From Olsenella sp. An293 (GTDB taxonomy: Bacteria; Actinomycetota; Coriobacteriia; Coriobacteriales; Atopobiaceae), in the NCBI RefSeq assembly GCF_002159495.1, contig NZ_NFIT01000015.1:1-64000 (forward strand): a DNA stretch of 64,000 bases, given 5' to 3'. The notes under the pieces were generated by a model. The model was not told the DNA's origin. It did no database searches and saw nothing but the letters and a program-made list of their open reading frames with translations. The stretch's first letter is position 1. Each line of letters opens with the position of its first letter. This document shows positions 48,906 through 64,000 of this stretch, one piece after another. A program made the position numbers and the translations under genes.

Positions 48906-50600
48906 ATGATTGAAGTTCCCACTCATATCTCTGCAGAGAAGCCCAAAGGTTCCCCCTTCTACATCTCGAGCACCGACTTTGTCTACGGACAACACCAAGA
49001 GCTTGTCGATGTTGACTTCAAGGAAGGCGTAATCACCAACTGGCCCCTCGTCTACATCTTGGCAAATGAGACCACCGCCTATGTTGGGCAGACAACCAGT
49101 GCCGCCAACAGGATGAACCAACACGGGGCAAACGAGGAGCGGAAGGACTTCACGACCATCAACTTGATCTACAACGCTGAGTTCAATAGCTCCGTCATCA
49201 CCGACTACGAGCACAGGCTCATTGGCCTCATGCACGCAGATGGCAAGTACCGCCTCACCAACAAGAACGACGGAATGACCGATACGAACTACTTCTGCAA
49301 GTCCCAATACGCGGAGATGTTCAAGGACCTTTGGGAGGAGCTCCGAAAAGTTGAACTAGCGCAGCACACCATCGATGAGATTGAGGAGTCAGAGGTCTTC
49401 AAGTACTCGCCATTCAAGGGGCTGACCCCAGACCAGCGAGTCGCAATTGACGAGATTCAGATGGCAATCGAGGCAGGGCTTGAGAACGCGCGTCCCGTAG
49501 TGGTGGAGGGCATGCCCGGCACAGGAAAGACCATTCTTGCAATCTACCTCCTCAAGCAACTCAAGGACAACCCCGATTACAAGGGAATGAACATCCGCCT
49601 CCTTGAGCCGGTCACATCTCTGAGAAACACGCTTCGGAGCGCCCTAAAAACGGTGAGTGGGCTCTCGGAAGATGATGTCGTCGGACCACTTGACCTCGTA
49701 AAATCAAAGTACGGCTATTCTTCGAACGGCGAGAAGAGCTTTGACATCGTGCTCGTAGACGAGGCCCATCGACTGAAGCGCCGGGTAAACCTCGGAACCC
49801 AATACGGGAATTTCGACAAAACCAGTCAGATTCTCGGTCTTCCCAAAGAGACAAACCAAGTGGAGTGGCTGCTAAATGTAACTAAGCTGCCGATTTTCTT
49901 CTATGATCCTCTGCAGACCGTTGGGCCGTCCTGCGTTCTGGAGAACGACATACGGGCCGCCTTGGGACCAGCAATGAAGAACCCCATAAGACTGGACACG
50001 CAGATGCGCGTCAAGGGCGGGAAGGCATATCTCGACTACATCGCGGACATCCTTATGAACCACAACCCCACACCAACACGGTTTGAGGGCTACGAGCTGG
50101 TATTTCACGACACGATTGAGAGCTTCTACAGCAGTTTTGAGTCAACATATCACGAGCACGAGCTCAGCCGAATGGTCGCCGGCTATGCATGGAAGTGGCT
50201 TTCTAAGAATGATGCCAACGCATATGACATCGAGATCGATGAAGTGCGGCTCCGGTGGAATCGCACCTATGACAATTGGGTCGGCATAGGAATGACGGAT
50301 GATTCGGCCGCTCACGAGGTTGGTTGCATCCACTCGATCCAGGGATACGATCTTAGCTATACCTATGTTCTCATCGGCGATGACCTCTACTATGACTCTC
50401 AGTCGAAAGAGATCGGAGCCAACAAGAACAGCTACTACGATCGAAATGGGAAGAATACCGCATCGGATAGCGAGCTGGATCAGTACATCAAAAACATCTA
50501 CTACGTACTGCTAACCCGCGGCATCTATGGCACCCACATCTACGTGAAGAATCCCGTGCTGCGCAATCGACTGAGGAAGTACTTTCAATTTGAAGCCTAA
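48906..50600 (+). CDS. GIY-YIG nuclease fused to DUF2075 helicase-like ATPase
   Basis: Protein of 564 residues. The N-terminal GIY-YIG domain reads VYILANETTAYVGQTTSAANRM (approx. residues 48-70), then an Arg/Glu region. The DUF2075 motor has Walker A VEGMPGTGKTILAIYLL (about 199), Walker B IVLVDEAHRLKRR (about 283), IHSIQGYDL and LLTRGIYGTHIYV, a superfamily I helicase layout. Likely a DNA- or RNA-targeting defence enzyme; target unknown. Start ATG in GGAACCAACATG has a weak ribosome binding site. Its end overlaps the convergent MazG-like gene by 4 bases. Confidence 0.82.
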   Translation: MIEVPTHISAEKPKGSPFYISSTDFVYGQHQELVDVDFKEGVITNWPLVYILANETTAYVGQTTSAANRMNQHGANEERKDFTTINLIYNAEFNSSVITDYEHRLIGLMHADGKYRLTNKNDGMTDTNYFCKSQYAEMFKDLWEELRKVELAQHTIDEIEESEVFKYSPFKGLTPDQRVAIDEIQMAIEAGLENARPVVVEGMPGTGKTILAIYLLKQLKDNPDYKGMNIRLLEPVTSLRNTLRSALKTVSGLSEDDVVGPLDLVKSKYGYSSNGEKSFDIVLVDEAHRLKRRVNLGTQYGNFDKTSQILGLPKETNQVEWLLNVTKLPIFFYDPLQTVGPSCVLENDIRAALGPAMKNPIRLDTQMRVKGGKAYLDYIADILMNHNPTPTRFEGYELVFHDTIESFYSSFESTYHEHELSRMVAGYAWKWLSKNDANAYDIEIDEVRLRWNRTYDNWVGIGMTDDSAAHEVGCIHSIQGYDLSYTYVLIGDDLYYDSQSKEIGANKNSYYDRNGKNTASDSELDQYIKNIYYVLLTRGIYGTHIYVKNPVLRNRLRKYFQFEA

Positions 50601-50932
50601 AGCTCGGTGTACTTCTTAGGTGAGCCTACCGACTTTTCGACGGGATAGTGTTCGGCATTACGCCTTATCTTGTCGTGGAGTGCCGAAGGTATGTCAATCC
50701 CCTCGACATCGGCAAGGTAGATACAGTACATCATCACGTCTGCAAGCTCTTCGCACACTCGAGCCCTAGAGCCCTCGGGGCTGAGATTGTCCCCACTCCA
50801 CTGGAAGCACTCGAGGAGCTCCGCCGCCTCGAGAGAAATCGAAAGAGCGAGATCTTTGGGGTTGTGAAACTGCAGCCAATCTCGGGCGTCTCGAAACGCC
50901 AAGGCCTCTTGTTGTACCTCGGAGAAAGTCAT
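50597..50932 (-). CDS. MazG-like nucleotide pyrophosphohydrolase
   Basis: Protein of 111 residues. The all-alpha NTP-PPase motif is SLEAAELLECFQW followed by CEELADVMMYCIYLAD (ExxE...ExxD Mg-binding residues). It hydrolyses nucleoside triphosphates to monophosphates, and single-domain types act in house-cleaning or in phage defence. Convergent with, and overlapping by 4 bases, the DUF2075 gene. Confidence 0.9.
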   Translation of the reverse strand: MTFSEVQQEALAFRDARDWLQFHNPKDLALSISLEAAELLECFQWSGDNLSPEGSRARVCEELADVMMYCIYLADVEGIDIPSALHDKIRRNAEHYPVEKSVGSPKKYTEL

Positions 50933-50987
50933 GCTGTCCCCTCTTGCTGCATGGTCGATACATTCATACTATGCCGTCCGCGATAAC

Positions 50988-51323
50988 TCAACAAGAAAGT
51001 GTATCCTCCGCGTTGGAGGAGAAGCAGTCGAGCATGCTCGCTTCCTCGACGTCCATCACGTCCGCAAGCAGCTTGATGCCGCGCTCGTAGTTGAACGTCT
51101 TGGTCTCAGACTCGCAGGCGATCGAGCCGGTCTTGTACCCCACGTTGCGGGTGTAGTCGCCGAAGCCCGTGACCTCGATCTTCGGGACCATAATCTCCTT
51201 GGCGTTGCGCCCGGCGCGCGCCATGCGACGCGGAGAGTTCAGGCACGTCGAGCACGCGGCCCTCTTGTAGACCTCGTCCAGGACGGCGGTGTAGTTCTTG
51301 GTGTAGGCGATGCTGTTTGCCAT
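50988..51323 (-). pseudogene. 5' fragment of a phage major capsid gene
   Basis: Reads MANSIAYTKNYTAVLDEVYK and RAACSTCLNSPRRMARAGR, then EIMVPKIEVTGFGDYTRNVG, typical of the start of a siphophage major capsid protein. After DVMDVEEASMLDCF it runs out at codon 111, where the family continues for about 200 more residues. This is the left edge of the prophage remnant; the rest of the head and tail genes are missing here. Confidence 0.7.
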
Positions 51324-51326
51324 CTG

Positions 51327-51854
51327 CTACTCCTCGCTCTCGGGAAGGCCGGCGATCCTGCGCCAGCGGCTCATCTGCGTGGACTCGTCGGCCCCGGCGG
51401 CGCCCGCGCTCGGCAGCCCCGTCGCGCCGGCCGGCGCCGGGGCGGCGGGCGCCGAGAAGAGCCAGGGCTCCGCGGCCTTGAGCTTCTCGATGTCGTTGTC
51501 GTGGTCGGCGAGAAGCGCGCGGGCGGCCTTGACGTTGCGCGCGCCCGCGAGCTGCAGCTCGAATCCGACGCGCTCCTCGTCGCCCCTGCGGCGGAGCTCG
51601 TCCATCTCCTTGCGCAGGGCCTCCGCGCCCTCGGCGGTCTTCGCGGCCTCCGCGATCTCGCCCTCGAGCTCCGCGATCCGCGCGTCACGCTCCTTGAGCG
51701 CCGCCTCGTAGTCCTCGCGCGCCTTGGCGGCGCCGTCGTCGACCTTGGGGGTCGCGGCGGCGCCATCGTCCCCGCTCACCTGCGCCGGCGCGCCCTGCGC
51801 CTGCTGCGCCGCGCCCTCGTTGACCTGCTTCGTCTCGTCCTGCAAGCCATCCAT
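51327..51854 (-). CDS. phage scaffolding-like protein
   Basis: Protein of 175 residues, strongly acidic and coiled-coil (AREDYEAALKERDARIAELE; ALRKEMDELRRRGDEERVG), ending in a Pro/Ala-rich tail and RWRRIAGLPESEE. Composition, length and its place 3 bases before the capsid gene identify a scaffold (minor structural) protein. Ribosome binding site GGAAGGA. High G+C, like the portal gene 10 kb away. Confidence 0.75.
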   Translation of the reverse strand: MDGLQDETKQVNEGAAQQAQGAPAQVSGDDGAAATPKVDDGAAKAREDYEAALKERDARIAELEGEIAEAAKTAEGAEALRKEMDELRRRGDEERVGFELQLAGARNVKAARALLADHDNDIEKLKAAEPWLFSAPAAPAPAGATGLPSAGAAGADESTQMSRWRRIAGLPESEE

Positions 51855-51889
51855 CTGCCCGTCCTTCCAGTAAGGCGGGCAAGAGGAAA

Positions 51890-51923
51890 GCCCGCACCCT
51901 GACGTCTCGATCAGGGTACGGGC
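51890..51923 (-). terminator. terminator at the left end of the cargo operon
   Basis: Stem GCCCGCACCCTG/CAGGGTACGGGC; on the minus strand it is followed by TTTCCTCTTG. It ends the leftward cargo operon before the phage scaffold gene. Confidence 0.65.
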
Positions 51924-51949
51924 GTGTCACAAGTGCATTTCTCTGATTC

Positions 51950-52369
51950 TTATCCTACAGTGCCTCGGTCATCCGTATCATCTGATAAGGAGCGAATCGT
52001 CTTCCTGACGAACTCTGGTCCGCGACTCATGATTCCAGCGATAACGCCGCTCATCTCGTCCTTCTCCATACCGGTGAGAGTAAGACTTTGCATCAAATCC
52101 AAGATAAGCTCAACGGCCTCCCAGTCCTGCTCCTCCAGGGGCTCTAGGGAGAGGGCGGCATACTCGGCATCCCCCACAAGTTCGTCGGGATTGAATTTCG
52201 ATGCAAATACCCTCGTATTTCCCTCGTCGTCAAGCGATCCGTCTGTGTAGACTATGACGTCCCCGCTTGTCCAGGGCTTGCCGCAGCGGAACATGGGAGT
52301 GCACTGCAGGATTTCGCCGTCTTCTGAAATCGCGGAGAATCCAGTCGCTCCCTCATGAATCGATTCCAT
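51950..52369 (-). CDS. hypothetical acidic protein, 139 aa
   Basis: Begins MESIHEGATGFSAISEDGEI and includes GDVIVYTDGSLDDEGNTRVF and ALSLEPLEEQDWEAVELILD. No family recognised; no signal peptide or membrane segment. Ribosome binding site AAAGGTGA. It is the last gene of the leftward cargo operon, 83 bases after the ClpP-like gene. Confidence 0.6.
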   Translation of the reverse strand: MESIHEGATGFSAISEDGEILQCTPMFRCGKPWTSGDVIVYTDGSLDDEGNTRVFASKFNPDELVGDAEYAALSLEPLEEQDWEAVELILDLMQSLTLTGMEKDEMSGVIAGIMSRGPEFVRKTIRSLSDDTDDRGTVG

Positions 52370-52451
52370 AATGTCATCACCTTTCGAATCTTGTCGGAGA
52401 AGTGTTTACTGTGGATTGGCGATTGCGGACGAACTGTTTTGATTTCGCCTC

Positions 52452-53012
52452 TCAGCATAGGCGATCCGGCTCGATTACCCTATCCGCGACTCCATATTCA
52501 ACCGCTTCGGCACCCCACATCCAGTGGTCGCGCTCCATGTCTCTCGAGATCGTCTCTTGCGAGTTTCCCGTCCTCTCCGCCATGATTCTGTTGATGCGTT
52601 CGCGGGCCTCGAGGATGTGCTGGGCCGCTATCGCGATGTCGGTAGCCTGTCCCGACGCTCCTCCGATGGGCTGGTGAATCAGGACTTGGGTGTTCGGGAG
52701 GACGGCTCGCTTCCCTGGAGTGCCGGAGCAGAGAAGAAATGCCCCCATGCTGGCACACATGCCGATACCGATGGTCCTGACGTCACACGGCACGTGCTGA
52801 ATCGTGTCGAAGACCGCCAGTCCTGCGGAGACGCTACCGCCGGGGGAATTGATGTAAACAGTGATGTCCGAGTCCGAGTCCGCTGCGAGCAGAAGAATCT
52901 GGGAAACAACCTTGTTTGCGAGAGAGTCGTCGATTGCTCCTGCCAGAAAAATGACTCGCTCCCGAAGGAAAGCGCTAGCTACATCTATGGCGGTGCCGTT
53001 TTGGAGTGTCAT
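52452..53012 (-). CDS. ClpP-like serine peptidase on a mobile element
   Basis: Protein of 186 residues with the ClpP fold. NSPGGSVSAGLAVFDTIQ, the nucleophile in IGMCASMGAFLL, the His in NTQVLIHQPIGG and the Asp in TISRDMERDHWM make an intact triad. No partner Clp ATPase is nearby; instead the gene lies 14 bases after a VirD4-like ATPase, with ribosome binding site GGGAGGAACATC. The chromosomal clpP is presumably elsewhere, so this is an extra copy with a special role. Confidence 0.9.
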   Translation of the reverse strand: MTLQNGTAIDVASAFLRERVIFLAGAIDDSLANKVVSQILLLAADSDSDITVYINSPGGSVSAGLAVFDTIQHVPCDVRTIGIGMCASMGAFLLCSGTPGKRAVLPNTQVLIHQPIGGASGQATDIAIAAQHILEARERINRIMAERTGNSQETISRDMERDHWMWGAEAVEYGVADRVIEPDRLC

Positions 53013-53026
53013 GATGTTCCTCCCGC

Positions 53027-54685
53027 TCACTCTTCGTTGCTGTCGTCCAAATCTATGCCAATGGACTGAAGGAGCTCCTCGACTGATTTCGCGGACTCCC
53101 TGTTCCTGGCGGCCTTCCTTTCTTGGATGCATGTTTCCGCGAGCTGCTTCATCTTCTCGCTCTCCCAAGATTCGACATGAGACTTCATGTCGAACACGCG
53201 CCGAGGGATCGGGGGGAGACGGCTTGCCTTCGCGTTTTTCGTCTCACAGCCGACCTTTGAGGAAAGCGGACAGATTGACTCGTAGTCGGGAAGAGTTGCA
53301 ACGAAAGGGACAAGGTTCTCCATGAGGACAACGGCCTCAGTTTCGTTGGCGCGCTTCTCCAGGCGCTGCAGCTGGCCGCGCGTCATCCTGGGCATCGTCT
53401 TACCACCTGGGGAGACGTACTCGCCGAGTTGCTCGCTGAACTGCTTGAGGTATTCCGGGTCCCTTGTTCCAAGAAACATTTGGTTGTATATGTTTCCGAC
53501 GATGACGCCTTTGAGCTCCCTTCCGTAAACGTGTTCAAGCTGGGCGTCCGATTGCACGCAGAGGTGCAGCTTAATCCCACGACTGCGGCAGGCAGAGATA
53601 ACCTCTCCAAAACTCGGTATGCGCTTGGAGAGATTGCCAAACTCATCGAGGACAAAGTCGACGGGTTGCCGACGAGCCTCGTCACTTGCCTCGGCAAGCG
53701 CGATCGCCTGAGTCATAAGCTGGCCCAGAATCGCTACCGCGATTGGTGCAATTTCTGAATGCTCGTCAGGGGAGATCAAGAATATTGCCGTTCGCTTCTC
53801 AGCAAGAACGGAAGCATCGAAGTTCGAGTAAGAGAGTACGCTCATGAGGCCCTCTTGGGAGCTGTAGATGCTCATGTCTTGGCGCCATACTGAGAGGATG
53901 GATGCCTTCGTTTCCTCCGGGGCGCCGAGGGTGCCAGCCGCCGCCGCCGACGCAATAGTTCCCTTCATGTGGGAGAAGAACTTGTCCAGAGGCCCCCTGC
54001 CCCTCGAATACCCCATCGAGTCGCGATCCATTGCCGCAACGGATTCAAGAGTGAACTCCTCGAGATCGCACTTCGCCTCAAGCATGCCAAGAGAGAGTGA
54101 AGTGAAGTAATCTTGGGCAGAGTTTTCCCAGAAAGGATCGACTCCGTGGGCTTCAGCCGAATTGGAGAAGATGGTGAAGGCGAGGTTCCGAATCATTCGA
54201 GATGCGGCGTCTCGATCCCCGGAGTTCCAGGACTTCCACGCTGCGGAAAGAGGGTTGTACTTGTCGGGAGAGCATGCTGGGTGGCGCAGGTCGACAACAA
54301 AGACGCTGTAGTCCATGAGTTTCAGGAGTCCGGCTAGGGCTTCGACGATTTCGCCCTTCATATCGTTGACGACGAGGTTGTGTCCCGCGAGGATCATTGT
54401 CTCGACCATGGGGATGATTCCCCTCCGGGTCTTTCCCCTTCCGCTGCAGCCGACAATGAGCGAGTGGCTGTCCCCGGACGCAACCTGCACGGATCCGTTT
54501 GCGCGAGAGCCAACGACGAGCCCTCCGTCGGGACAGAGACCCTCGAGTCTACGCTTGTCTGCCTCATTCTCAACGAGGCTTGCATATCCTCCTTTCCTTT
54601 CAAGAAGCTCGATGGCATCACTTACGTTGCAGCAAACGCTGTTCCTTGCGATGTCTCCCTCGGACGCGAATCTGTTTCCGGTCAA
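53027..54685 (-). CDS. VirD4/TraG-type ATPase lacking membrane segments
   Basis: Protein of 552 residues of the type IV coupling protein family. Walker A GCSGRGKTRRGIIP is at about residue 76; NDMKGEI, FVVDLRHPACSPDKYNPL and Walker B VDFVLDEFGNLSKRIPSFGE are all typical of TraG. The usual two N-terminal transmembrane helices are absent. A TTG after GAGGTGA is taken as start; a GTG 9 bases earlier is possible. No relaxase or other transfer gene is in the window. Immediately followed by the ClpP-like gene. Confidence 0.85.
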   Translation of the reverse strand: MTGNRFASEGDIARNSVCCNVSDAIELLERKGGYASLVENEADKRRLEGLCPDGGLVVGSRANGSVQVASGDSHSLIVGCSGRGKTRRGIIPMVETMILAGHNLVVNDMKGEIVEALAGLLKLMDYSVFVVDLRHPACSPDKYNPLSAAWKSWNSGDRDAASRMIRNLAFTIFSNSAEAHGVDPFWENSAQDYFTSLSLGMLEAKCDLEEFTLESVAAMDRDSMGYSRGRGPLDKFFSHMKGTIASAAAAGTLGAPEETKASILSVWRQDMSIYSSQEGLMSVLSYSNFDASVLAEKRTAIFLISPDEHSEIAPIAVAILGQLMTQAIALAEASDEARRQPVDFVLDEFGNLSKRIPSFGEVISACRSRGIKLHLCVQSDAQLEHVYGRELKGVIVGNIYNQMFLGTRDPEYLKQFSEQLGEYVSPGGKTMPRMTRGQLQRLEKRANETEAVVLMENLVPFVATLPDYESICPLSSKVGCETKNAKASRLPPIPRRVFDMKSHVESWESEKMKQLAETCIQERKAARNRESAKSVEELLQSIGIDLDDSNEE

Positions 54686-54698
54686 CTCAATCACCTCG

Positions 54699-55463
54699 CT
54701 AGAACCCGAACTTGCTCGTCTTGTACAGCCCCACGACGGCGTTGCCGTACTCGTCAAGAAGCTCCTCGACGCTTTTCGGGTCATTGATGTCGGTTCCGAG
54801 CATACGGGCCTTTGATGCGATGCCGCGCGAGATGGCATAGCTAACCTCCAAGGAGCTCGCATCTAGATTTTCAAACCAAGAGACAAAGACATCGAAGCCG
54901 GGGCCTGTACCCTCTCCACGAAAGATGACCTCTGTAAGCATTACGGGTTTTGGTGGAAGTAGGGCAATCACTTCGACCGGAATTCCGCTGGACACGCTAA
55001 TAAGATTCGCGAGCCGGTCTGCGAGGCGCTTCTCGGAGCAACGAGCTGTGAACACGAAGTCTACGTGGGGGTGCGCCTGGACATGATGCACCAACGTATC
55101 CCAACCTCCCTTGGAGGGGTCCGCTCCGACCCACCCGGTGAGGTCGATACAATCGACACCATAGAATTCGTTCGTGATCTCTGCACTATCCTCGAGCTCA
55201 TCTCTGAAGCGCTCAACATCGGAGGGGCTCCCTGCATATGGGAAATTTCTATGCGCAAAGTGCCTTCGATGGGAATCCGCCCGATGAATCCCATTTCTAA
55301 CGTTTTTTTCGTAAACTGAGGCGGCAAGCTTGGCAATCAATGCGTCCTCACCGATGTCCCCATGCTGAGATAACTGTATTAGCAGTGCCGGTCCGTCCGT
55401 AATGTCCGCCCAAACCCTCAGCTTTTCACAGTCCTGCTTCGATACAACAAATTGCTCAATCAC
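54699..55463 (-). CDS. hypothetical protein of the VirD4-ClpP operon, 254 aa
   Basis: Begins (GTG) IEQFVVSKQDCEKLRVWADI. A region with VDCIDLTGWVGAD and HVDFVFTARCSEKRLADRL looks like an AAA-related core, but no clear Walker A is present, so it may be a degenerate or adaptor ATPase. The C-terminal KSVEELLDEYG echoes KSVEELLQSIG at the end of the VirD4-like protein. Stop and next start are 13 bases apart. Function unknown. Confidence 0.6.
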   Translation of the reverse strand: MIEQFVVSKQDCEKLRVWADITDGPALLIQLSQHGDIGEDALIAKLAASVYEKNVRNGIHRADSHRRHFAHRNFPYAGSPSDVERFRDELEDSAEITNEFYGVDCIDLTGWVGADPSKGGWDTLVHHVQAHPHVDFVFTARCSEKRLADRLANLISVSSGIPVEVIALLPPKPVMLTEVIFRGEGTGPGFDVFVSWFENLDASSLEVSYAISRGIASKARMLGTDINDPKSVEELLDEYGNAVVGLYKTSKFGF

Positions 55464-55560
55464 GATGGTCCCCCTTCCTCTTCTTCTGTGTGTATCTAAC
55501 GGTAGGTGTGAGGGAACATAGTTTGTAGGGCATTGGAATACACGCCCTATAGAAGCAGGA

Positions 55561-55603
55561 GCGCGACGGCGCCACCACAGAACTTGCGACGGCGCCGTCG
55601 CGC
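55561..55603. terminator. hairpin in the operon spacer
   Basis: A perfect 13-bp stem GCGCGACGGCGCC/GGCGCCGTCGCGC with a 17-base loop; a second smaller stem (TAGGGC/GCCCTA) lies at about 55526-55550. It divides the six-gene leftward operon into two parts. Confidence 0.65.
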
Positions 55604-55640
55604 GGCAAACGCGGACGGCCAGTTAACTCAAATTGCCGTT

Positions 55641-56747
55641 CTACTGCGAGGTGATATCTGTCGCACTTGAGCAGAACGCGTTGATCTTTAGGTCGTCAAT
55701 TCCTCCCAATACTCCAAGTACGAGAAAATTTGCTCTGCACGTATCGCGAATCTCATCGGGATCGGCGAGAGCATAGGCAATTGCATAAGTACGCATTGCG
55801 TTCCGGACGTAATCCTGATTTGCTGTCTGGGCACCGCCAGACGCCATATGGATCTTTCCATCCATCGCAAGGGCTTTTCGATAGAAAAAGTAATGGACCT
55901 TGACAGACGTTTGCGCAATCTTCAGAAACCGAATCCCCGCGTCAGCGATCTTAATTATCGTATCATACTCGCAGCTATCGCCCAGAATTTTCTCCAAGTA
56001 GGTAAGGCAGCACTGGGGAACAGGAATGCGTGTTGGATCGGCAACTCCTTCTGCAATGGTATCTCTACGGAAAATCGCCCCTTCAAGTATCCCCCGAGCT
56101 TCGTCCACCTTTCCATAATCAATGAGTATCTCCGCTTCTTTGTTAATCAGATGGTCGTTTGGAGGCAGCCGATCGATTGCCTCGCGGACAAACCTCAAAG
56201 CCCTCTCGTAGGTCGAGACCCTATCCGAAAGTCCCTGGGCATGAGCCTTGGAGCAGAGGTAGTCTGCAACGTAAACTGCCAGCCTCCAGTCTTCATCCGC
56301 ACGATAATCAGGAGACTCGGCCCGCTCCACCAGTCTGTCGCCCGTTGCCCAATCACCAATCTGCCCAGCAGCATTAATCGCATCGGCAAGCAAAATGGCA
56401 TCACATGGGAAACGCCGAAGACCTGCTTCTGCTAACGCTAACGAGGATATGAAATCTCCGTCCGTAGAAAACCTAACCCAAATATTATGCCAGTCAGCTC
56501 TCGACCCAGATATTTTATCTGAATTATTAATTATATAGTCAGCAATTCTAGACATATGCTGCCTATGTGTTGAAACCTCCGATGCACGCTGAGGGCTTAT
56601 AGAGCTCGTGTAAGCGTCATTGATTGACGAGAGGGTCCAAAGCTCGCAGCCTGAATCTGATCCGTCTTCGCTAGCCTCTTCGTCAGGCGTAAGTAGTCCA
56701 GACATTATTTCCTCAATCTCTGAAGAATCTATGGTGATCTCATTCAT
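55641..56747 (-). CDS. TPR-like helical repeat protein, about 368 aa
   Basis: Begins MNEITIDSSEIEEIMSGLL. Several degenerate tetratricopeptide-like helices follow (LALAEAGLRRFPCDAILLAD; AINAAGQIGDWATGDRLVER; TYERALRFVREAIDRLP; NKEAEILIDYGKVDEARGIL). It is probably a scaffold for protein contacts. The upstream gene overlaps if the ATG at 56762 is used. Notably low G+C compared with flanking phage genes. Function unknown. Confidence 0.65.
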   Translation of the reverse strand: MNEITIDSSEIEEIMSGLLTPDEEASEDGSDSGCELWTLSSINDAYTSSISPQRASEVSTHRQHMSRIADYIINNSDKISGSRADWHNIWVRFSTDGDFISSLALAEAGLRRFPCDAILLADAINAAGQIGDWATGDRLVERAESPDYRADEDWRLAVYVADYLCSKAHAQGLSDRVSTYERALRFVREAIDRLPPNDHLINKEAEILIDYGKVDEARGILEGAIFRRDTIAEGVADPTRIPVPQCCLTYLEKILGDSCEYDTIIKIADAGIRFLKIAQTSVKVHYFFYRKALAMDGKIHMASGGAQTANQDYVRNAMRTYAIAYALADPDEIRDTCRANFLVLGVLGGIDDLKINAFCSSATDITSQ

Positions 56748-56752
56748 AGCTG

Positions 56753-57823
56753 TTAGCCCCATCTTCCCCGAAGAACCGTCCTAATCAGGTCAAAAGACTC
56801 TGGTCCGATTATAAGCGATAGGGTAAATGCTGAAAGAAGCCGTGCCCCGTCCCCTTTGGCATGCTCTTGAATCTCACTCCATGATTGTGCGACACGCTCT
56901 GGTTTTGCCGACTTTTCCTTGAGCTCTCGAAACAGTCTTGACGATCTGTCCCGAAGCAATTCGAAGTCATGTCCAAGGGGAAGGACCTCTCTAGCATTTA
57001 CGACCATCACCGAGTAGCGATTTCCCCCGTCTGAACAGAAGAACTCAGAAAGGACGCCACAGAGCCAATCAACATTCCCACCGTGAATAAGCTGACCGAC
57101 CAACCTGTCCTCGGAATGTTCGGCTATCTCGACCTTGCCCAACAAATAGACGAGCGCTCGTTTCGGGAGAAGAGTGCGAAGAAAGTCGATTTCCGTTTTC
57201 GGAAGTCTTTGATAAACAGGGCCCAACGAATCTGGCCGATAATCAATAGTCGTCCCGTCGCGCCTTTCCGCCCGTCTGGCAGTGTCGGCGAGGACCGCAA
57301 ACGGAAGGCAAAGAAGCCCGTCGTTCTTTACAGAGTCGCTTCTCTCGCGGACACAATGTTTCACAAAGATGCCGCAGAAGGCCTCCCACTCATCGCCATC
57401 CCATGGGCAATCCTCCCAACGTTCAGGCAGGCAGGGACGAGACCGCTTCCGTCTGGAGTCAGATATCCCGGCGGCTACATCAAGCTCGTCTATCACAACA
57501 CCGTGCCCCAAAAGATAGGCTCGGGCTTCGCGTGCCATCAAGAGAGGGCCACCATAGTAATTGCCAATCTTCGCTAGGGCTGAACTAACGTGTTCGAACA
57601 GATTCTCTTTGCTAGGCTTACCGTCAATTGATTCAAAGTACTGAACAGGCCACCCAGGTCTCTTGAGCTTCTTTCCTCCCGCAGCACGTTTTCCGGCATC
57701 GTCATCGAGATCGACAAGCGTGTATATATTCTGCCGGAAGCGATACTCGTTCTCCACAGGGGCTCTCGTCCCAAGGTGCTGCAGCAGACCGATCATCCAG
57801 TCCGAATAAATCAAATCCGCCAT
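56753..57823 (-). CDS. hypothetical protein, first gene of leftward cargo operon
   Basis: Protein of 356 residues beginning MADLIYSDWMIGLLQHLGTR. No family recognised. It contains a Trp/Asp-rich segment (ERWEDCPWDGDEWEAFCGIF) and LGPVYQRLPKTEIDFLRTLL. No membrane segment. Ribosome binding site GGAGGTGA. It overlaps or abuts the TPR gene, so the two are coupled. Confidence 0.65.
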   Translation of the reverse strand: MADLIYSDWMIGLLQHLGTRAPVENEYRFRQNIYTLVDLDDDAGKRAAGGKKLKRPGWPVQYFESIDGKPSKENLFEHVSSALAKIGNYYGGPLLMAREARAYLLGHGVVIDELDVAAGISDSRRKRSRPCLPERWEDCPWDGDEWEAFCGIFVKHCVRERSDSVKNDGLLCLPFAVLADTARRAERRDGTTIDYRPDSLGPVYQRLPKTEIDFLRTLLPKRALVYLLGKVEIAEHSEDRLVGQLIHGGNVDWLCGVLSEFFCSDGGNRYSVMVVNAREVLPLGHDFELLRDRSSRLFRELKEKSAKPERVAQSWSEIQEHAKGDGARLLSAFTLSLIIGPESFDLIRTVLRGRWG

Positions 57824-58101
57824 GAAAGGCTCACCTCCGCTAATATGGTCTTGCCGACAGACTGGGCATTAGCTTCCATTAAGCTACCTACCATTAAGCT
57901 ATCTATTCCATATTATCTTTCCCAGCAGATGAGAATTCAGGGGCATATTCTTATGTGCCCCAAACCGTGGGGACGATATCAGGAGTCGTAAAACCGGCGC
58001 AGGTTGCCTGCGATGGGGCGAGCTGCAGGACGCCCTATTTTTTTCTCATAGCGCCGTTAAAGTAAATACCAGAACAAGCGGAGAGGGAGGAGGTGAGAGT
58101 A
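57824..58101. promoter_or_regulatory. divergent promoter region between the two cargo operons
   Basis: A/T-rich spacer of about 280 bases. CCATTAAGCTA occurs twice (about 57877 and 57890). A hairpin GGGGCATA-ttctta-TGTGCCCC lies at about 57941-57962. A TTTTTTTCTC run at about 58039 and GTTAAAGTAAATACC follow before the first peptide gene, whose ribosome binding site is GGAGGAGGTGA. Confidence 0.55.
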
Positions 58102-58236
58102 ATGATTAAGGTGTATTTCGCTGATGATGGGGGCGCAGAAGGCGCAGAGTTCGATTGTCCGTACTGTGGCGGTGACGCTATTCAGAACGACACCGGCTCC
58201 ACCTGCTCGAACCCCAGCTGCCCCAGCAACAATTAG
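58102..58236 (+). CDS. 44-aa cysteine-rich peptide at head of RiPP locus
   Basis: Translates from the sequence as MIKVYFADDGGAEGAEFDC, then PYCGGDAIQNDTG, then STCSNPSCPSNN. Four Cys in two pairs (CPYC and CSNPSC) make a zinc-ribbon-like pattern, but an acidic leader followed by a Cys-rich tail would also suit a third precursor peptide. Strong ribosome binding site GGAGGAGGTGAGAGTA. First gene of the rightward unit that leads to the radical SAM enzyme. Confidence 0.7.
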   Translation: MIKVYFADDGGAEGAEFDCPYCGGDAIQNDTGSTCSNPSCPSNN

Positions 58237-58283
58237 TACACCACCCCTCTTGAAGTGATGAGGCACGAGAAAGGAGGACACCC

Positions 58284-58409
58284 ATGAAGGCCATCGTCAA
58301 GCCCGCGGAGACTGTCGAGAAGCTCGCCAAGGCGCCCGAGAGGCTGGTCGCTGCGGCATCCGGTTGCAGCGAGTGCCGCGATCTCCCCTGCGGGCGTAAC
58401 TCTCGCTAA
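58284..58409 (+). CDS. RiPP precursor peptide 1 (41 aa)
   Basis: Reads MKAIVKPAETVEKLAKAPER, then LVAAASGCSECRDLPCGRNSR. Leader-like basic/hydrophobic helix to about residue 25, then a core with Cys28, Cys31 and Cys36. Ribosome binding site AAAGGAGGACACCC. It is a paralogue of the next peptide: both share MKxIVKPxExVEKLAKAPE and GC...RD(L/F)PCGRN. Upstream of a radical SAM/SPASM enzyme, it is the likely substrate. The opening MKxIVKP is reminiscent of Clo7bot-type clostridial Cys-rich precursors, a resemblance from memory. Confidence 0.8.
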   Translation: MKAIVKPAETVEKLAKAPERLVAAASGCSECRDLPCGRNSR

Positions 58410-58450
58410 GTATATTTCATCGTATATCTCTAGATTGTGGAGGAAGACTT

Positions 58451-58579
58451 ATGAAGGTCATCGTAAAGCCCGTCGAAGCCGTTGAAAAGCTCGCGAAGGC
58501 ACCCGAGAAGCTGATTGCTGCCTCGCACGGCTGCGACCCTCTCCGCGATTTCCCCTGTGGGCGCAACACGCGCTCGTAA
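58451..58579 (+). CDS. RiPP precursor peptide 2 (42 aa)
   Basis: Reads MKVIVKPVEAVEKLAKAPEK, then LIAASHGCDPLRDFPCGRNTRS. Paralogue of precursor 1 with Cys28 and Cys36 kept and the middle Cys31 changed to Leu. That leaves one invariant Cys pair spaced by seven residues, useful for guessing where the enzyme installs its thioether or C-C bond. Ribosome binding site GGAGGAAGACTT. Separated from the maturase by a strong hairpin. Confidence 0.8.
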   Translation: MKVIVKPVEAVEKLAKAPEKLIAASHGCDPLRDFPCGRNTRS

Positions 58580-58675
58580 AATCTAGCTCAGTTTGCTTGT
58601 CACCATGGGCAGGGCTGGAAAGTCAGTGCCGCAGCTGCCCACGACAGCTCGAATTGGCCTTGAGGCAATAAGCCC

Positions 58676-58709
58676 GCCCCGGCGAGTCGAATGGAATCCT
58701 CGCCGGGGC
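58676..58709 (+). terminator. attenuator hairpin between precursors and maturase
   Basis: A perfect 11-bp stem GCCCCGGCGAG/CTCGCCGGGGC with a 12-base loop lies 20 bases before the radical SAM start and has no U-tract. It could act as a partial terminator or RNA-stability element giving more precursor than enzyme. A weaker stem TGGGCAG/CTGCCCA lies upstream at about 58609-58650. Confidence 0.65.
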
Positions 58710-58728
58710 GCATATTAGGGGGTGCATC

Positions 58729-60033
58729 ATGGGGGGCAACTACAAGCCTTCAGAGTTCAACGTAATCCACGCGATGCCAGAGGGGGGCGCGGTGGTCGTG
58801 AACACCTTCTCTCGCTCGGTGTCCGAGCTGGACGCGCGGGAGCTTCGCGAGCTGAAAAGTGGCAACATAGACGAGTTTTCGGATGGAGAGCGGGAAGAGC
58901 TGGCAAAATCCGGCCTGATTATACCCAGAGATGTTGATGAGGTCGCCCTGCTCAGCGAGGGGCTTAGGCGGTCGAAGAGAGACCGTACCCATGCAACGAT
59001 TACGGTGCTGACAACTCTAGCTTGTAACTTTGAGTGCCCATACTGCTTCCAAAGCCATACGTCAGGCATCATGTCCGCGGAAGTGCAGGACTTGGTTGTC
59101 GATCATATCGGAACCGTAGCTTCACGCCTCCTTCCCCCCTGCGGTGATGATGGAGAGTATAAGGAGTCCGAGCTCACCCTCTGCGTAACGGGCGGCGAGC
59201 CGCTTCTCGCCCTTCCCGCGATTCGACGTCTGGTGACGGGCGCTCGAGAGGCATGTTCTGCGTGCGGCGTGCGACTTGTCACCTCCATGATTACAAACGG
59301 CTACCTCCTCGACCGAGAGGTTGCGGAAGAGCTCGGCAATCTCTCCTCGAGCTGGACCGTCCAAATCACGTTGGATGGAGCCCGCGACACGCATGACGGA
59401 CGCCGTCGCCTCCGCGGGGGCGGGAGAACCTATGACAGGATCGTTCAAAACATCCTTTCGCTTGATTCCGACGTTTTCACGGTGAAGCTGCGCATCAATG
59501 TGGACAGGGACAACCTCAACGAAATCGACGAGGTTTACAATTGGGCAGAGGGACTACCCAACGTCATTCCGTACGTTGCGCCCGTGACCGCCGAGGAGAC
59601 GCAGGACGAACGTACTAGGTGTGCATGCTTCCTTCCGTCGGAGTACCGGGAGTTCTACAGCGCAGTTGATTCTGCCGGGCTTATTTCAGATTCGATCTCC
59701 AGCCTCTTGCAGCGCGGCACGACGTGTGCAGCGGTCCACGAGCTGTCTTGTTGCGTCGATTCCAACGGCTACCTCTACAAATGCTTCGACAAGTGTGGAC
59801 AGATCGAGTACGCATACGCCAAGCTCGGAAACCCTGAATTCAGCAAACCCGAGCGAGAGGAAATGTTCCTGAGCAGAAGCGTGACGGCGGAGAGGGAGTG
59901 CAAAGACTGTAAGTTCTTGCCACAGTGTCTTGGTGGCTGCCCTCTTGCTTGGCTCGAGAGGGGCACGCATTATTGCGCTCCTGCAAAGTTTCTCATTGGG
60001 GGTGCCGTTGAGAGAATGTGCTCAGGGCAATAA
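58729..60033 (+). CDS. radical SAM/SPASM peptide maturase
   Basis: Protein of 434 residues. An N-terminal region of about 80 residues could be a leader-binding (RRE-like) part. The radical SAM motif is C99-NFE-C103-PY-C106 in LTTLACNFECPYCFQ, with CVTGGEPLL as the SAM-binding GGE motif. The SPASM domain has many Cys (RGTTCAAVHELSCCVDSNGY; KCFDKCG; ECKDCKFLPQCLGGC; HYCAPAKF), enough for two extra [4Fe-4S] clusters. It should crosslink Cys or other residues of the upstream precursors. Ribosome binding site AGGGGGTG. Confidence 0.88.
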   Translation: MGGNYKPSEFNVIHAMPEGGAVVVNTFSRSVSELDARELRELKSGNIDEFSDGEREELAKSGLIIPRDVDEVALLSEGLRRSKRDRTHATITVLTTLACNFECPYCFQSHTSGIMSAEVQDLVVDHIGTVASRLLPPCGDDGEYKESELTLCVTGGEPLLALPAIRRLVTGAREACSACGVRLVTSMITNGYLLDREVAEELGNLSSSWTVQITLDGARDTHDGRRRLRGGGRTYDRIVQNILSLDSDVFTVKLRINVDRDNLNEIDEVYNWAEGLPNVIPYVAPVTAEETQDERTRCACFLPSEYREFYSAVDSAGLISDSISSLLQRGTTCAAVHELSCCVDSNGYLYKCFDKCGQIEYAYAKLGNPEFSKPEREEMFLSRSVTAERECKDCKFLPQCLGGCPLAWLERGTHYCAPAKFLIGGAVERMCSGQ

Positions 60034-60045
60034 GGAGGGATTACA

Positions 60046-61506
60046 GTGAGCACTTGGAGGCATATTGGCATCGTTGAAATCGGCACTGACAGCATCGACG
60101 CCGAAACGCTCCGATACTTGGCTGAGTCCCGGAGCCCAGAAGCGGGTGCGCCTCTCTTCCTAGATCCCAGTGCATTGGACGAGTTCGTGAGTTACCTCTT
60201 CAATCTCGAGTCGCCTAAGTGCGGGGGTCCTGGCTACATCAGGTTCCGCAACGTGTTCCTCTCCTCAGCCTGGAGATACGACACCACGGACGGCAATAGT
60301 GTCGTTGTGCTGGAGGAGCCCTTCGAGAGGTTCGCTCGAGAAAAGATCTCGGAGTTTATGGAGGAAGATCGCCGGGAGCTCCTGCCACTCGGCTCGAGAC
60401 TGAATCTCGCCACTCAGGCTCTGTCGGAAGACGGTGCCATGTCCACGAGCGCGTCGTCCATAACTGCATCCGCCGCCAGCGCCGTAGGCGCCATGGAGTC
60501 CTTCCTCGCGGCGCCTCGAAGGAAGACCCGCTTCGACTTGGAGGACTTCTTTCGGAGCGCCGACGGGATCTACGGCCTCGCCAGCTGCATCGAGCTCCTC
60601 CGTAGGCTCCTGCTGGCGGCGGGCCGTGCGCACGACGCGCTCGGTGCCGCGACGATAGGGCACCATAACTTCGCGAGCGTCGACGACGCCGTTTCGCTCT
60701 GGAAGGTGGCCGAGGGGGCGGCTGCGAAACGCCTGACGAAGGCTCTCGTTCGCCTGATGTCACGGACTCCAGGGCTTTCGGGGCGAGAGGAGACTGTCAG
60801 CTTTTCTCCCGAGCCGGGCGACACCGCTTGGATCGAATCCTGCTCTCGGGTGGGCCAGGAAGCCCTACGCTGGGCATACGACCGCGGCGACGCCTCAATA
60901 AACTTTGCCAGCGCGGTAGGCGCCGCGTGGCCGGGGCCCACGCTCTACGGTTACGACGACGGCGAAGAGGACCCCAGGGGAGCGTGTGAGCTGTGCGCCG
61001 CGCTCGCGCGCAGGAGAGACCCCGAAATGCCCCTACTCTACGGGACGCACGAGGCGGTTGTCTCGCAAGACGTTGTCGTACCCATCCCGGAGAGGCTGCT
61101 CGAAGGGGTGAGTCGCCTGTACGTGACGGAAAGCGCGGAGGAGCCCGGAGCCCTCTTCTGCCAGACTTCTCCCCGCCGCTTCGCCAGGCTTGCCCAGCTC
61201 ATCGCCAGCGAGCAAGAGCTTCGCGGCCGTCCCTGGAATTCCATCCAGAATGGCGAAACGGGCTTCGCGAGCGACTTCGAGGACGAGTTCGCGCTCTACG
61301 CCTCTGGCGAGGAGGTCACCGTCGTCGACGGGGGGCTGCCCCTACGGGAGCTGGAGGCGTGCGAATGGACGAGGCCAGGCGTCTCGGTCGTGCTGCTCGG
61401 GGTTGGCGACCACTTCGAGATCGCCGAAGCGGAGCGACACGCGTCTTACGAAGAGGAGTTCGGCATCGAGCTGTCCGAGCTGCTGGACACCTACTTCCAG
61501 GAATAG
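60046..61506 (+). CDS. uncharacterised RiPP-locus partner protein, 486 aa
   Basis: Begins at a GTG after AAGGAGGGATTACA, 12 bases after the maturase stop, so it belongs to the locus. The sequence (MSTWRHIGIVEIGTDSIDAE; a Ser/Ala-rich stretch near residue 130-150; FDLEDFFRSADGIYGLASCI; GDHFEIAEAERHASYEEEFG) matches no family I know. No signal peptide, clear membrane helix or protease motif. It may bind the precursor, act in export or immunity, or be a second modifying enzyme; sequence does not decide. Confidence 0.75.
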   Translation: MSTWRHIGIVEIGTDSIDAETLRYLAESRSPEAGAPLFLDPSALDEFVSYLFNLESPKCGGPGYIRFRNVFLSSAWRYDTTDGNSVVVLEEPFERFAREKISEFMEEDRRELLPLGSRLNLATQALSEDGAMSTSASSITASAASAVGAMESFLAAPRRKTRFDLEDFFRSADGIYGLASCIELLRRLLLAAGRAHDALGAATIGHHNFASVDDAVSLWKVAEGAAAKRLTKALVRLMSRTPGLSGREETVSFSPEPGDTAWIESCSRVGQEALRWAYDRGDASINFASAVGAAWPGPTLYGYDDGEEDPRGACELCAALARRRDPEMPLLYGTHEAVVSQDVVVPIPERLLEGVSRLYVTESAEEPGALFCQTSPRRFARLAQLIASEQELRGRPWNSIQNGETGFASDFEDEFALYASGEEVTVVDGGLPLRELEACEWTRPGVSVVLLGVGDHFEIAEAERHASYEEEFGIELSELLDTYFQE

Positions 61507-62236
61507 TCGTCCCGGCTATCACGACGGACAATCCCACACCCCACCACCCGCTGCCCGTCGAGGGTCGTCCGCAGCCCACCTGCCTCCGCTCCGTTGCGCG
61601 CACGGCTCGGAAACCGCCCCGCCCTGCGCGGAGGGCGCCACTCACGGCCATGCCCGCCGCTCCGGCTGTGTATTGCTCCGCGGCTCGGGCCAGCCAGCTG
61701 CGCCTACGTGTTGCTCCCGGCTCAGGTCAGCCGGCTGCGCCGTCTGCCCTTCGCGGCGGTCGCACACTCCGGCTGCGCTGTCTGTCCCTCGCGGCGCTGC
61801 GCATACACAGCCTACGCTCTGGGCATGGCCTGACGGGAGTTTGAAGTGCGCAGGTCGGGTCGGTTCCTCGCGGCGGCGCGCACTCCGCCACGGCAGATGG
61901 GCTGCTGCCCTCTCGTCCTCGTTCGCGGGTGGTGGTGGGGTGTGGGCGTCCTTGCGGCCCTCACGGAGGAGCAGCGAGCGCGACTCCGTGGCGACGTCGC
62001 CCCTGGGCTTTTGCACGGCAGTCACGCGCTCATGAGCAGCGATCCGGATCCCCGAAGGAGTCTGAGCCCGAGACGACCCCGTCCGCCCAGGCAGGGGAGC
62101 CGCAACGCATGCGCCGGGTCGCAGCCGCCGCCCGCACCGGCGCCGCAGCCCTCACCCCAAGGGTCGGGGCGCGGCCGCTCCCACGCCCGCGTGCGCGTGC
62201 GCCGGAGTGTCAGCGCCCCTCGCCTTGGACACCCTC
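61507..62236. repeat. intergenic with inverted repeat and degenerate tandem repeats
   Basis: About 730 bases without a convincing gene. CCCACACCCCACCACCCGC (about 61532-61550) is mirrored by GCGGGTGGTGGTGGGGTGTGGG (about 61926-61947), which has one extra TGG. Between them a degenerate 36-39-bp tandem repeat (units like GGCTGCGC.GTCTG.CC.TCGCGGCG) runs from about 61665 to 61810. This is the right junction between cargo and phage portal gene. Confidence 0.6.
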
Positions 62237-63796
62237 TCATCGCGCCGGCGCGCCCGCCGCCTGCTCCTCGCGGCGGCGCCCGCGCCCCGGCACCCCTGCC
62301 TGGGCTGCGTCAACGCGCTCCGACCCGCCATCGCCCGCGCCAGATCCGGCAGCGACCCCTCTGCGCCTCGTCGTCGCCTTGCCCTCGCCGTACCACTTGG
62401 CGCGGTACTCCCACGGCTCCAGAAGGCCCGCCGCCACCTCGTCCATGTCCTGGCGCTTCTCCGCCGTCGTGTCCGTGATGATGCTGTCGTCGAACGTCAC
62501 GCGCACGAGCCCCTCGTCGGGCAGCTCCACCCCGAGCCTGCGCTCGGCCGCCATGAGCGCCCGGCAGATCCCCGCGATGGCGCCCTCGAGCGCGCGCTCG
62601 TGTCTCCTGATGTTGCGCATCAGCGCCGAGTTGTCCGCCGACACCTCCGTGGCCGTCTTCACGTAGCCGACGCTCTCGAGGTCGAAGTAGTTGATGCCGA
62701 AGCCGCAGAGGTCGCCGAGCGTCTGCAGCGCGACCCTGAACGCCCGCGCCTGCGCCTCGGTGCGCAGGGTGGGCGCGAACTCGTGGATCGTGTCCTCAGT
62801 GCTCATGACCTTCCTGAACACCGTGCAGTCCTGCCGCCCGAAGGGGATGGAGACGCGCCCGCCCTTGCCGTCCCTCTCGACGTCGAACATCACGTCCGAG
62901 AGGAACACGCGCATCTTCCCGTTGTCGATCTCCGACATCATCGCGTCGTAGCAGAGATCGACCGCCTGGATCGCGTCCACCGCGTCCGCGAACACCGACT
63001 GCCCGTAGGGCGACATGTCCACGCGCGTGTTGTCGATGGCGGGCCTCACGATGGCGAACGTGGGCCACACCGAGCCCGTGTCGTACGCCGGGCACACGCC
63101 CTCCGGCTCGACGCGGTTCCCGTCGCGGTCGAAGCAGGCCGTGACGATCCGGTACGTGCCCTCGCTTTCATCGTCAGTCAGGCGAGAAGGACCCGCCGCC
63201 GAAGCCCCTCCAGATGATTCGCCAGGCGAGAAGAACGCGTCGGCAGCGCCCTTAAGGTGCAGCTGCACCTGGTCGACGGCCTTGCCCCTCCAGAACGCCC
63301 GCGTCACGAACGCGCACTCCGTCACGCCCTCCTCGTCCCACGTGAGCGGCACCACCATCCGCGCGTCGTAGCGCCGCACGCGCACCTCGCCCGCGCCCGC
63401 GTCCACCCAGAGCGCCCACGCGCCCGTCCCCAGGCCGAACGCCCGCACCACGCACTCCTGCGCCGAGGCGAGAAACCCGGTCCGAGCCATCCACGCCGCG
63501 AGCCAGTCCGTGCACGCCTGGTCGTCGCACGCCACCTGCGTCCGGTCGTTCAGCAGCAGCGACCCCCACTCCCGGCACACCCGCATCGCGGGGTGGATCG
63601 AGCGCCGGTGCACCTCGTACACCCGCCCGACCCCGTCAGTGTCCCGATAGTCGTAGAAGTCCCCGAGCGCCCGCATCCACCTATCCCACGCCCGTATGTG
63701 CGGCTCCATGTCCTCCAGCGGCAGCGAGAACCCGAGCGACCCCAGCCACGCCCTCACATGCTCCGGCACCCAGTACTCGTCATCGTTCGCGCCCAT
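62237..63796 (-). CDS. phage portal protein, SPP1 gp6-like
   Basis: Protein of about 519 residues beginning MGANDDEYWVPEHVRAWLGS after GGGAGGTGAGCCC. The portal pattern includes RVYEVHRRSIHPAMRVCREW, LGTGAWALWVD, VDAIQAVDLCYDAMMSEID, STEDTIHEFAPTLRTEAQAR and EVSADNSALMRNIRRHERAL. It forms the dodecameric DNA gate of the phage head. The CGAGAAGAAC word is embedded in its frame (encoding AFFSP). The next phage gene in the usual order is not adjacent: the scaffold lies 10.4 kb away. Confidence 0.87.
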   Translation of the reverse strand: MGANDDEYWVPEHVRAWLGSLGFSLPLEDMEPHIRAWDRWMRALGDFYDYRDTDGVGRVYEVHRRSIHPAMRVCREWGSLLLNDRTQVACDDQACTDWLAAWMARTGFLASAQECVVRAFGLGTGAWALWVDAGAGEVRVRRYDARMVVPLTWDEEGVTECAFVTRAFWRGKAVDQVQLHLKGAADAFFSPGESSGGASAAGPSRLTDDESEGTYRIVTACFDRDGNRVEPEGVCPAYDTGSVWPTFAIVRPAIDNTRVDMSPYGQSVFADAVDAIQAVDLCYDAMMSEIDNGKMRVFLSDVMFDVERDGKGGRVSIPFGRQDCTVFRKVMSTEDTIHEFAPTLRTEAQARAFRVALQTLGDLCGFGINYFDLESVGYVKTATEVSADNSALMRNIRRHERALEGAIAGICRALMAAERRLGVELPDEGLVRVTFDDSIITDTTAEKRQDMDEVAAGLLEPWEYRAKWYGEGKATTRRRGVAAGSGAGDGGSERVDAAQAGVPGRGRRREEQAAGAPAR

Positions 63797-64000
63797 GGGC
63801 TCACCTCCCGCCTCGTCCGAATACGCCCATTGAACCCGCCCGTCACAAAGGCAAAGAACAAAGGGCGCCAGGCGAGAAGAACGCCCGAGATTCAGTAGCC
63901 AACTGAATTGCGCCATAGGCGAGAAGAACGCACGCGCATGCACCTCCACCAGCGCCTTTCCACATTCTCGCGAGAGGCTGTCGATAACCTCCCGGCGCTC
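63797..64000. other. upstream of portal, edge of window
   Basis: About 200 bases. Two CGAGAAGAAC words (63873, 63920) flank a small hairpin ATTCAGT/ACTGAAT at about 63892-63908. No gene end can be assigned; a terminase gene would be expected beyond the right edge. Confidence 0.45.

Follow-up and report, generated by a model that had tools for sequence, protein, structure and literature searches.

A small radical-SAM/SPASM peptide locus in Olsenella sp. An293 and a core motif shared with a relative from another family

What might a radical S-adenosylmethionine (SAM)/SPASM enzyme make from two short, Cys-bearing peptides encoded just upstream of it? This question is raised by positions 58102-61506 of contig NZ_NFIT01000015.1 of Olsenella sp. 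An293, of which we analysed the first 64,000 nucleotides (nt; hereafter the window). An earlier sequence-only reading had described there two paralogous peptides of 41-42 amino acids (aa), each with its own ribosome binding site, followed by a radical-SAM/SPASM enzyme, and the open reading frames (ORFs), the Shine-Dalgarno-like sequences and the Cys motifs bear this out. We favour, with modest confidence, the interpretation that this is a small radical-SAM/SPASM locus for a ribosomally synthesized and post-translationally modified peptide (RiPP) of an uncharacterised variety, and that its product most likely carries a non-alpha thioether from Asp33 to Cys36 or to Cys28. The strongest new fact is a motif that the two window peptides share with a peptide from another family.

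Two paralogous peptides and their shared motif

All five frames of the locus are uninterrupted and lie on the + strand, and a Shine-Dalgarno-like sequence stands 5′ of each, AAAGGAGG and GGAGG in the case of the peptides. ORF, paralogy and motif identify two of these frames as the genes for the putative precursor peptides A1 (58284-58409, +; 41 aa, MKAIVKPAETVEKLAKAPERLVAAASGCSECRDLPCGRNSR) and A2 (58451-58579, +; 42 aa, MKVIVKPVEAVEKLAKAPEKLIAASHGCDPLRDFPCGRNTRS). The peptides are 71% identical, and the two contain 3 and 2 Cys residues. Comparison of 41 codons revealed 19 identical codons, 10 silent differences and 12 residue-changing differences, corresponding to a dN of 0.20 and a dS of 0.88 (NG86; dN/dS ~0.23). 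Since dN lies well below dS, both A1 and A2 look selected as proteins. Residues ~1-26 of A1 would form the leader and residues 27-41 the core.

The whole genome of the organism returned only A1 and A2 when searched with A1 (E limit 10; 5e-23 and 1e-15). Among 140 genomes of the family, A1 alone matched 72 at E<=1, and only its own genome below 0.003; the two best matches elsewhere were discarded, one lying within an 802-aa frame and the other across an ABC-permease gene. The relative that carries the motif stands beside one of the two closest relatives of the enzyme, in genome G324, which belongs to another family. There, a 42-aa peptide (MKQIRKAASSHKEIAAKAKALSNSCDNQRDLSCSGKTAMPPR; L085:8679-8807) overlaps the stop codon of the enzyme gene. 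Aligned with A1 and A2, it retains M1, K2, I4, K6, A15, A23, C28, R32, D33, C36 and R41. The alignment score was reached by 0 of 2000 shuffles, and the pattern C...RD[LF].C arose once in 200,000 shuffles of the G324 peptide. All three peptides start with MKxIxK in the leader and have CxxxRD[LF]xC in the core. Cys28 and Cys36, which the sequence-only reading had called invariant, are both kept in G324 with RD[LF] between them; the PCGRN core that it had named does not carry over, as G324 has SCSGK there, and the conserved motif is shorter. A profile of the three peptides, run against 395 genomes of the order, found 10 genomes at E<=0.02: besides Olsenella sp. An293 itself and G324 (7e-20), eight genomes matched, none of them better than 0.001.

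The second close enzyme relative, in genome G084, has a Cys-rich peptide (MRIIRKASLRYRDYIIGGFQQAKCKHCLLGKCHDDCHNCAR) in the same place relative to the enzyme. The sequence-only reading had made its case depend on small ORFs being conserved beside homologous maturases; the radical-SAM RiPP arrangement of short precursor genes beside a radical-SAM/SPASM maturase, present in the window, recurs at both G324 and G084, although the RD motif is absent from the peptide of G084.

MxxIxKP-type starts are seen in the G117 peptide (MEWIIKPVEDEDVLGRCHVMSPCKRGLD), in the G157 peptide (MEYIQKPVNTQ...) and in Clo7bot peptides (MKFIKKP.../MKYIVKP...), which suggests that MxxIxKP is a leader start common to a wider group. 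Backing from shuffles is mixed: for the G117 peptide, a Clo7bot-locus peptide and the G157 peptide, respectively, the leader similarity was matched by 16, 101 and 761 of 2000 local shuffles and by 0, 76 and 3 of 2000 global shuffles. At loci L088 and L089 of G157/G165, two long Cys-rich precursor candidates (one of 56 aa, the other of 54 aa with the start MEYIQKPVNTQ) are encoded before a relative of the enzyme and a gene of the ABC exporter type; this is another uncharacterised RiPP locus.

Leader patterns of A1/A2 found 541 stretches in genome_contigs and 101 in viral_contigs, with 0 confirmed in either set. The core pattern had 0 matches in viral_contigs, where patterns from all three peptides hit 52 stretches, none confirmed. 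Five exact core-pattern matches in genome_contigs are not relatives: they lie in frames of 16, 28, 58, 29 and 69 aa, show no leader of the MKxIxK type in the sequence displayed, and have no ORF of at least 120 aa with CX3CX2C in the stretches examined. One of the five reads C...SD.., admitted by a degenerate codon, and not RD.

The maturase and its relatives

The maturase gene (58729-60033, +; 434 aa) was identified through Pfam, NCBIfam, alignment and a predicted model. Its CX3CX2C motif (aa 99-106) is complete, and Cys residues 333, 352, 391, 394, 400, 404 and 416 of the SPASM region are invariant in the three-member enzyme alignment. Pfam detects Radical_SAM (2.5e-11) and a 4Fe-4S domain. 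The top NCBIfam models are TIGR04463 (187.9 bits, cut-off 525), CefB (164.4, cut-off 600) and Clo7bot (161.1, cut-off 600), and the enzyme misses the cut-off in all of the best 25 of the 64 models matched, so that its chemistry cannot be read from a family.

Among solved structures, CteB came first by sequence (2e-10) and anSME next. The predicted model (12 sequences, pLDDT 83.9, pTM 0.84) also has its best structural match in CteB (5why_A; Z 26.8, rmsd 3.8, 375 residues aligned, model residues 8-432), against Z 26.0 for ChlB and 25.1 for anSME, both aligned from residue 81-87 on, 22.9 for TigE over residues 1-433 and 18.4 for SkfB. Residues 1-83 of the model form four strands and then helices. 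The RiPP recognition element (RRE) has the order strand-strand-strand, helix-helix-helix in PMC12710340, and the modelled N-terminal part is consistent with a leader-binding RRE. The predicted layout resembles that of ranthipeptide maturases such as CteB (N-terminal RRE, radical SAM, SPASM). The reading of the locus as precursor pair and maturase is strengthened by this alignment, which includes the N-terminal part, and by the small ORF beside both closest enzyme relatives.

Enzyme homologues occur in 36 of 140 family genomes at 1e-30 and in 20 of 395 order genomes at 1e-45. The order has two clear leaders, G084 from the same genus and G324 from another family, both at 232-233 bits and well ahead of the next match at 170 bits. 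A tree of 46 enzymes joins those of the window, G324 and G084 in a single clade (99/96; recovered in 100% of 200 bootstrap trees), the sister of which is a large clade with ten members found with Nif11-type precursors; enzymes with MxxIxKP-type precursors are placed apart from the three. After one relative was dropped, the remaining relative still grouped with the window enzyme (95 and 94). The trees excluded enzymes of fewer than 360 or more than 560 residues and duplicate loci, and the leave-one-out trees used 22 chosen rows less one. A draw of 396 genomes from the phylum contained no further enzyme match at 1e-60. Phages and plasmids contributed 4 and 8 records, with identities of 31-33% or lower; among the four viral loci, no precursor candidate was recognised at L105. 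In a short unverified record labelled "Enterococcus phage IME_EF3", a 46-aa Cys-bearing ORF (L092 1038-1178) lies 5′ of a related enzyme (30.6%); our guess is that the record may be mislabelled bacterial DNA. G324 also carries a second radical-SAM gene, on the opposite strand (L085 9150-10169).

Known classes, proposed chemistry and alternatives

CteB, the SCIFF/ranthipeptide enzyme (PDB 5WGG, 5WHY), aligns with the window enzyme across the N-terminal part, radical SAM and SPASM, at 19% identity over the structural alignment. The window enzyme scores 71.3 on the SCIFF model TIGR03974 against a cut-off of 425, and A1 and A2 contain 2-3 Cys whereas SCIFF has six in ~45 residues. Clo7bot (TIGR04333/TIGR04334), as seen on a Paraclostridium bifermentans plasmid (L090), has a related maturase (28% identity), and its peptide starts resemble the MKxIVKP of A1/A2, with the one Clo7bot-locus leader showing a weak likeness. 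However, the score of the window enzyme on the Clo7bot maturase model is far below the 731.6 bits of the L090 enzyme, the positive control, and the Clo7bot peptide model did not match A1 or A2 up to E 10, whereas the L090 control peptide gave 44.6 bits. Clo7bot loci, unlike the window, have more Cys, many peptide copies and an ABC transporter nearby. TIGR04463 and CefB maturases are the best NCBIfam matches, yet the scores lie far below their cut-offs, and the single example seen has a CefA gene of 2040 nt as its partner, unlike the short window peptides. Maturases with Nif11-leader precursors, from the same order, are ~31-33% identical to the window enzyme and have a small Cys-bearing precursor nearby, but their leaders are long and of the Nif11 type, and the enzymes fall into a separate clade (100/98). 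No Nif11-type leader was matched in A1 or A2, with a weak control, since a sister-clade candidate reached only 24.5 on TIGR03798 (cut-off 32.3). On the PapB model (NF047865) the window enzyme scores 104.2 bits against a cut-off of 340, and PapB cores carry CX3D/E whereas A1/A2 have CX4D and DxxC only. The cyclophane/triceptide models FxsB and YhhB gave 43.7 against 370 and 53.3 against 445. Cyclophane makers need a conserved aromatic acceptor, and position 34 is Leu or Phe. The alignment with the sactipeptide enzyme SkfB is below that with CteB. Open-literature searches on Clo7bot and on TIGR04463 found no papers, and those on radical SAM with Coriobacteria, Eggerthella, defence islands, MraZ and ranthipeptides found no recognised description of the motif; subscription journals lay outside the coverage of both.

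In the thioether reading that we favour, the leader start MKxIxK[P/A] of A1/A2 is probably read by the RRE-like N-terminal part of the enzyme. By analogy with CteB, the leader would be bound at the N-terminal domain while the core reaches the cluster. The enzyme would cleave SAM at its CX3CX2C cluster and abstract hydrogen from a residue of the core, and the SPASM clusters may help to join the sulphur of a core Cys to a side-chain (non-alpha) carbon. As acceptor we would tentatively name Asp33 of CxxxRD[LF]xC: because Cys28, Arg32, Asp33 and Cys36 are conserved in all three motif peptides, a link between Asp33 and Cys36 or between Cys28 and Asp33 is suggested. The first would be Asp-x-x-Cys, with a spacing like that of the Asn-x-x-Cys link of NxxcA; the second would be Cys-x4-Asp, inside the range tolerated by PapB. 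Non-alpha precedents given in PMC8326336 are the Cys23-Asn20 link of NxxcA and the Cys-Asp link of freyrasin, and PMC9413430 has PapB linking Cys with Asp across zero to six intervening residues. The leader would be removed by a protease unlinked to the locus. The product could have a part in signalling, competition or defence.

Several observations weigh against this assignment. CteB leads ChlB by less than 1 Z unit, a margin at which the fold does not point to non-alpha thioethers in particular. In PMC9413430, PapB left the transposed Asp...Cys order unprocessed, which tells against the Asp33-Cys36 version. Three peptides from two loci carry CxxxRD[LF]xC, which leaves one locus besides the window in its support. 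Against A1/A2, 1599 of 2000 local and 145 of 2000 global shuffles scored as high as the G084 peptide, which bears no local resemblance to them. The window, G324 and G084 enzymes all sit on long branches, and a profile of the three (A3) also gives very high scores to MxxIxKP-group enzymes (G165 1e-88), so that the separation of the clade rests on the tree, whose 46 rows are a subset of the order's enzymes. Neither a protease nor an exporter was recognised within the unit, in agreement with the sequence-only reading, which had noted no transporter or leader peptidase there.

A precursor-maturase pair with other radical-SAM chemistry, whether a sactionine (alpha) thioether, a C-C or C-O link, an epimerisation or a change at Arg32 or Asn39 in place of Asp33, is a possible though doubtful alternative. 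The structural neighbours ChlB, anSME, TigE, SuiB, SkfB and EpeE carry out differing reactions, and the sub-threshold NCBIfam scores point the same way. Yet the residues kept between the loci are Cys, Arg, Asp and Cys, the non-alpha thioether makers CteB and PapB are among the enzyme's relatives, and the aromatic residue needed for cyclophanes is not conserved. It is unlikely that the 486-aa protein encoded next (60046-61506, +) is an essential partner of the peptide system, as a regulator, tailoring or immunity protein. Its gene is probably co-transcribed with the enzyme gene, since it begins 12 nt past the enzyme stop with its own Shine-Dalgarno-like sequence, and a predicted MraZ-like domain could bind DNA. 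Homologues were found in three other family genomes: a full-length one in G089 (40%), a partial one close to a contig end in G058, and tandem pieces in G037. No enzyme homologue (1e-6), however, lies in the 19, 12 and 16 kilobases (kb) fetched around them, the G058 and G037 stretches being whole short contigs; conversely, the stretches fetched for the G084 and G324 enzymes, including a wider one for G324, contain no 486-aa homologue. The co-occurrence of all three genes that the sequence-only reading had looked to as support for a distinct class was thus not found, and the 486-aa protein does not qualify as a defining partner. It is probably an accessory or unrelated neighbour and not a regular partner; in the relatives seen, the core system manages without its gene.

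The enzyme-peptide cassette might instead belong to conflict or defence islands, with a modified peptide acting inside the cell, which we consider quite improbable. In G324 (L085 2929-8807), a type III methylase gene (MTase_III 3e-196), the restriction gene (REase_III 8e-78), the enzyme and the precursor stand in a row, and the enzyme gene starts 48 nt past the restriction gene. In G084 (L061 181-9572), Hsp70, DnaJ/TPR and FtsK-type genes, small coiled proteins, a GNAT acetyltransferase, the enzyme and the Cys-rich peptide are encoded on one strand, the enzyme gene overlapping the acetyltransferase gene, in what looks like a conflict or secretion set. The window itself has a McrBC-like type IV restriction pair (44789-48243, -; McrC, PF10117, 1.8e-35, and a 799-aa EVE/AAA_5 McrB-type protein) ~10 kb left of the locus. 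In the stretches seen, we recognised no exporter gene next to any of the three enzymes, part of the genes listed being assigned through Pfam and the rest by eye, whereas the G117 and G157 enzymes, with MxxIxKP leaders, have an ABC exporter-type gene next door. However, the G084 contig ends 177 nt past the peptide, which leaves room for an exporter, and the comparison covers three loci in three differing neighbourhoods; as defence genes cluster in islands anyway, such neighbourhoods are weak evidence. PADLOC matched the enzyme to viperin-type models only (3e-12), confined to the shared radical-SAM core. More speculatively, and improbably in our judgement, CxxxRD[LF]xC might mark a separate exporter-less lineage with intracellular peptides, resident in mobile defence/conflict islands (the type III operon of G324, the Hsp70/FtsK-type set of G084 and the mobile-element cargo near McrBC in the window). 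Finally, decay within a broken prophage could have left the locus without a product, which we hold to be highly unlikely: the flanking phage genes are indeed broken or interrupted (a head-protein match covers profile positions 1-96 of 297), but the five frames are intact, the catalytic Cys are complete, and the divergence of A1 and A2 is concentrated at silent sites.

Should the motif prove to be cross-linked, as in the thioether reading, the locus would offer a compact, easily expressed substrate-enzyme pair of 41-42 aa, with two natural variants and a distant third, and the polarity and spacing of a Cys-Asp link made by a CteB-like enzyme would be directly testable. If the link to restriction and other conflict genes is real, a modified peptide would belong to a defence operon, which the open-literature searches did not show. 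If neither holds, this is one more uncharacterised radical-SAM RiPP locus.

The neighbouring genes and the surrounding prophage

The sequence-only reading had assigned the 486-aa protein to no known family. This stands at the level of profiles, with 0 matches in Pfam, NCBIfam and PADLOC, and no homologues were found in viral_contigs or plasmids. It does not stand for the predicted fold. A model from 5 sequences (mean pLDDT 66.9) returned MraZ in all 15 top rows of a Foldseek search, and aa 328-484 (~61027-61497) align with MraZ at Z up to 11.4, the next unrelated fold being at 7.3. In this model, the C-terminal third is an MraZ-like domain with the double-repeat fold, as in MraZ structures 1N0E, 9QLG and 9R4J. 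The protein differs from MraZ in that it carries ~330 further residues, is not of stand-alone size and has no Pfam or NCBIfam sequence match. In G089 (L008 8695-12313), the 486-aa homologue is flanked by an Abi_2 gene and a JetD-like gene, all three in a row on the same strand, and inspection by eye showed no further Wadjet genes close by.

The locus starts with an ORF that had gone undescribed, for a 44-aa zinc-ribbon-like mini-protein (58102-58236, +; CPYC...CSNPSC) with only weak zinc-ribbon-type matches in Pfam and NCBIfam. Three of 139 other family genomes, G008 (66% identity), G095 and G103, encode homologues, and no radical-SAM or 486-aa homologues lie in the 14-15 kb fetched around each. 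We rejected it as a third precursor because its homologues stand away from radical-SAM genes, and it is probably a neighbour. Between A2 and the enzyme gene, RNA folding predicts a strong hairpin (58677-58708, +; -21.7 kcal/mol). No terminator-like site was found near it, the T run being absent on its 3′ side, and the hairpin may lower enzyme expression relative to that of the peptides.

The locus had been called prophage-borne, which holds loosely. Phage genes on the minus strand flank a lower-GC (guanine-cytosine) stretch that holds it, within a decayed prophage spanning window positions 50597-64000 and the contig to 65707, and the locus is apparently cargo between the portal gene and the next phage-like genes. 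On one side lie a terminase piece at the contig end past the window (-; PHROGs), a hydrolase-like ORF between terminase and portal, recognised by eye, and the portal gene (62237-63949, -; phrog_533, 7e-80). On the other lie a gene of the function-unknown family phrog_31118 (51327-51854, -; PHROGs), whose product we take to be scaffold-like from its place and a resemblance, and the truncated major head protein match (50988-51323, -). The GC content is 0.54 in 51950-57823 and 0.57 in the enzyme gene, compared with 0.70 in the portal gene, 0.75 in 51327-51854 and 0.68 in window positions 1-36000. The lower-GC stretch of ~10 kb that separates the portal from the next phage-like genes also carries a ClpP-type protease gene (head maturation protease in PHROGs) and a VirD4-type coupling-protein gene. 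A pyrophosphatase-type gene follows the truncated head-protein match.

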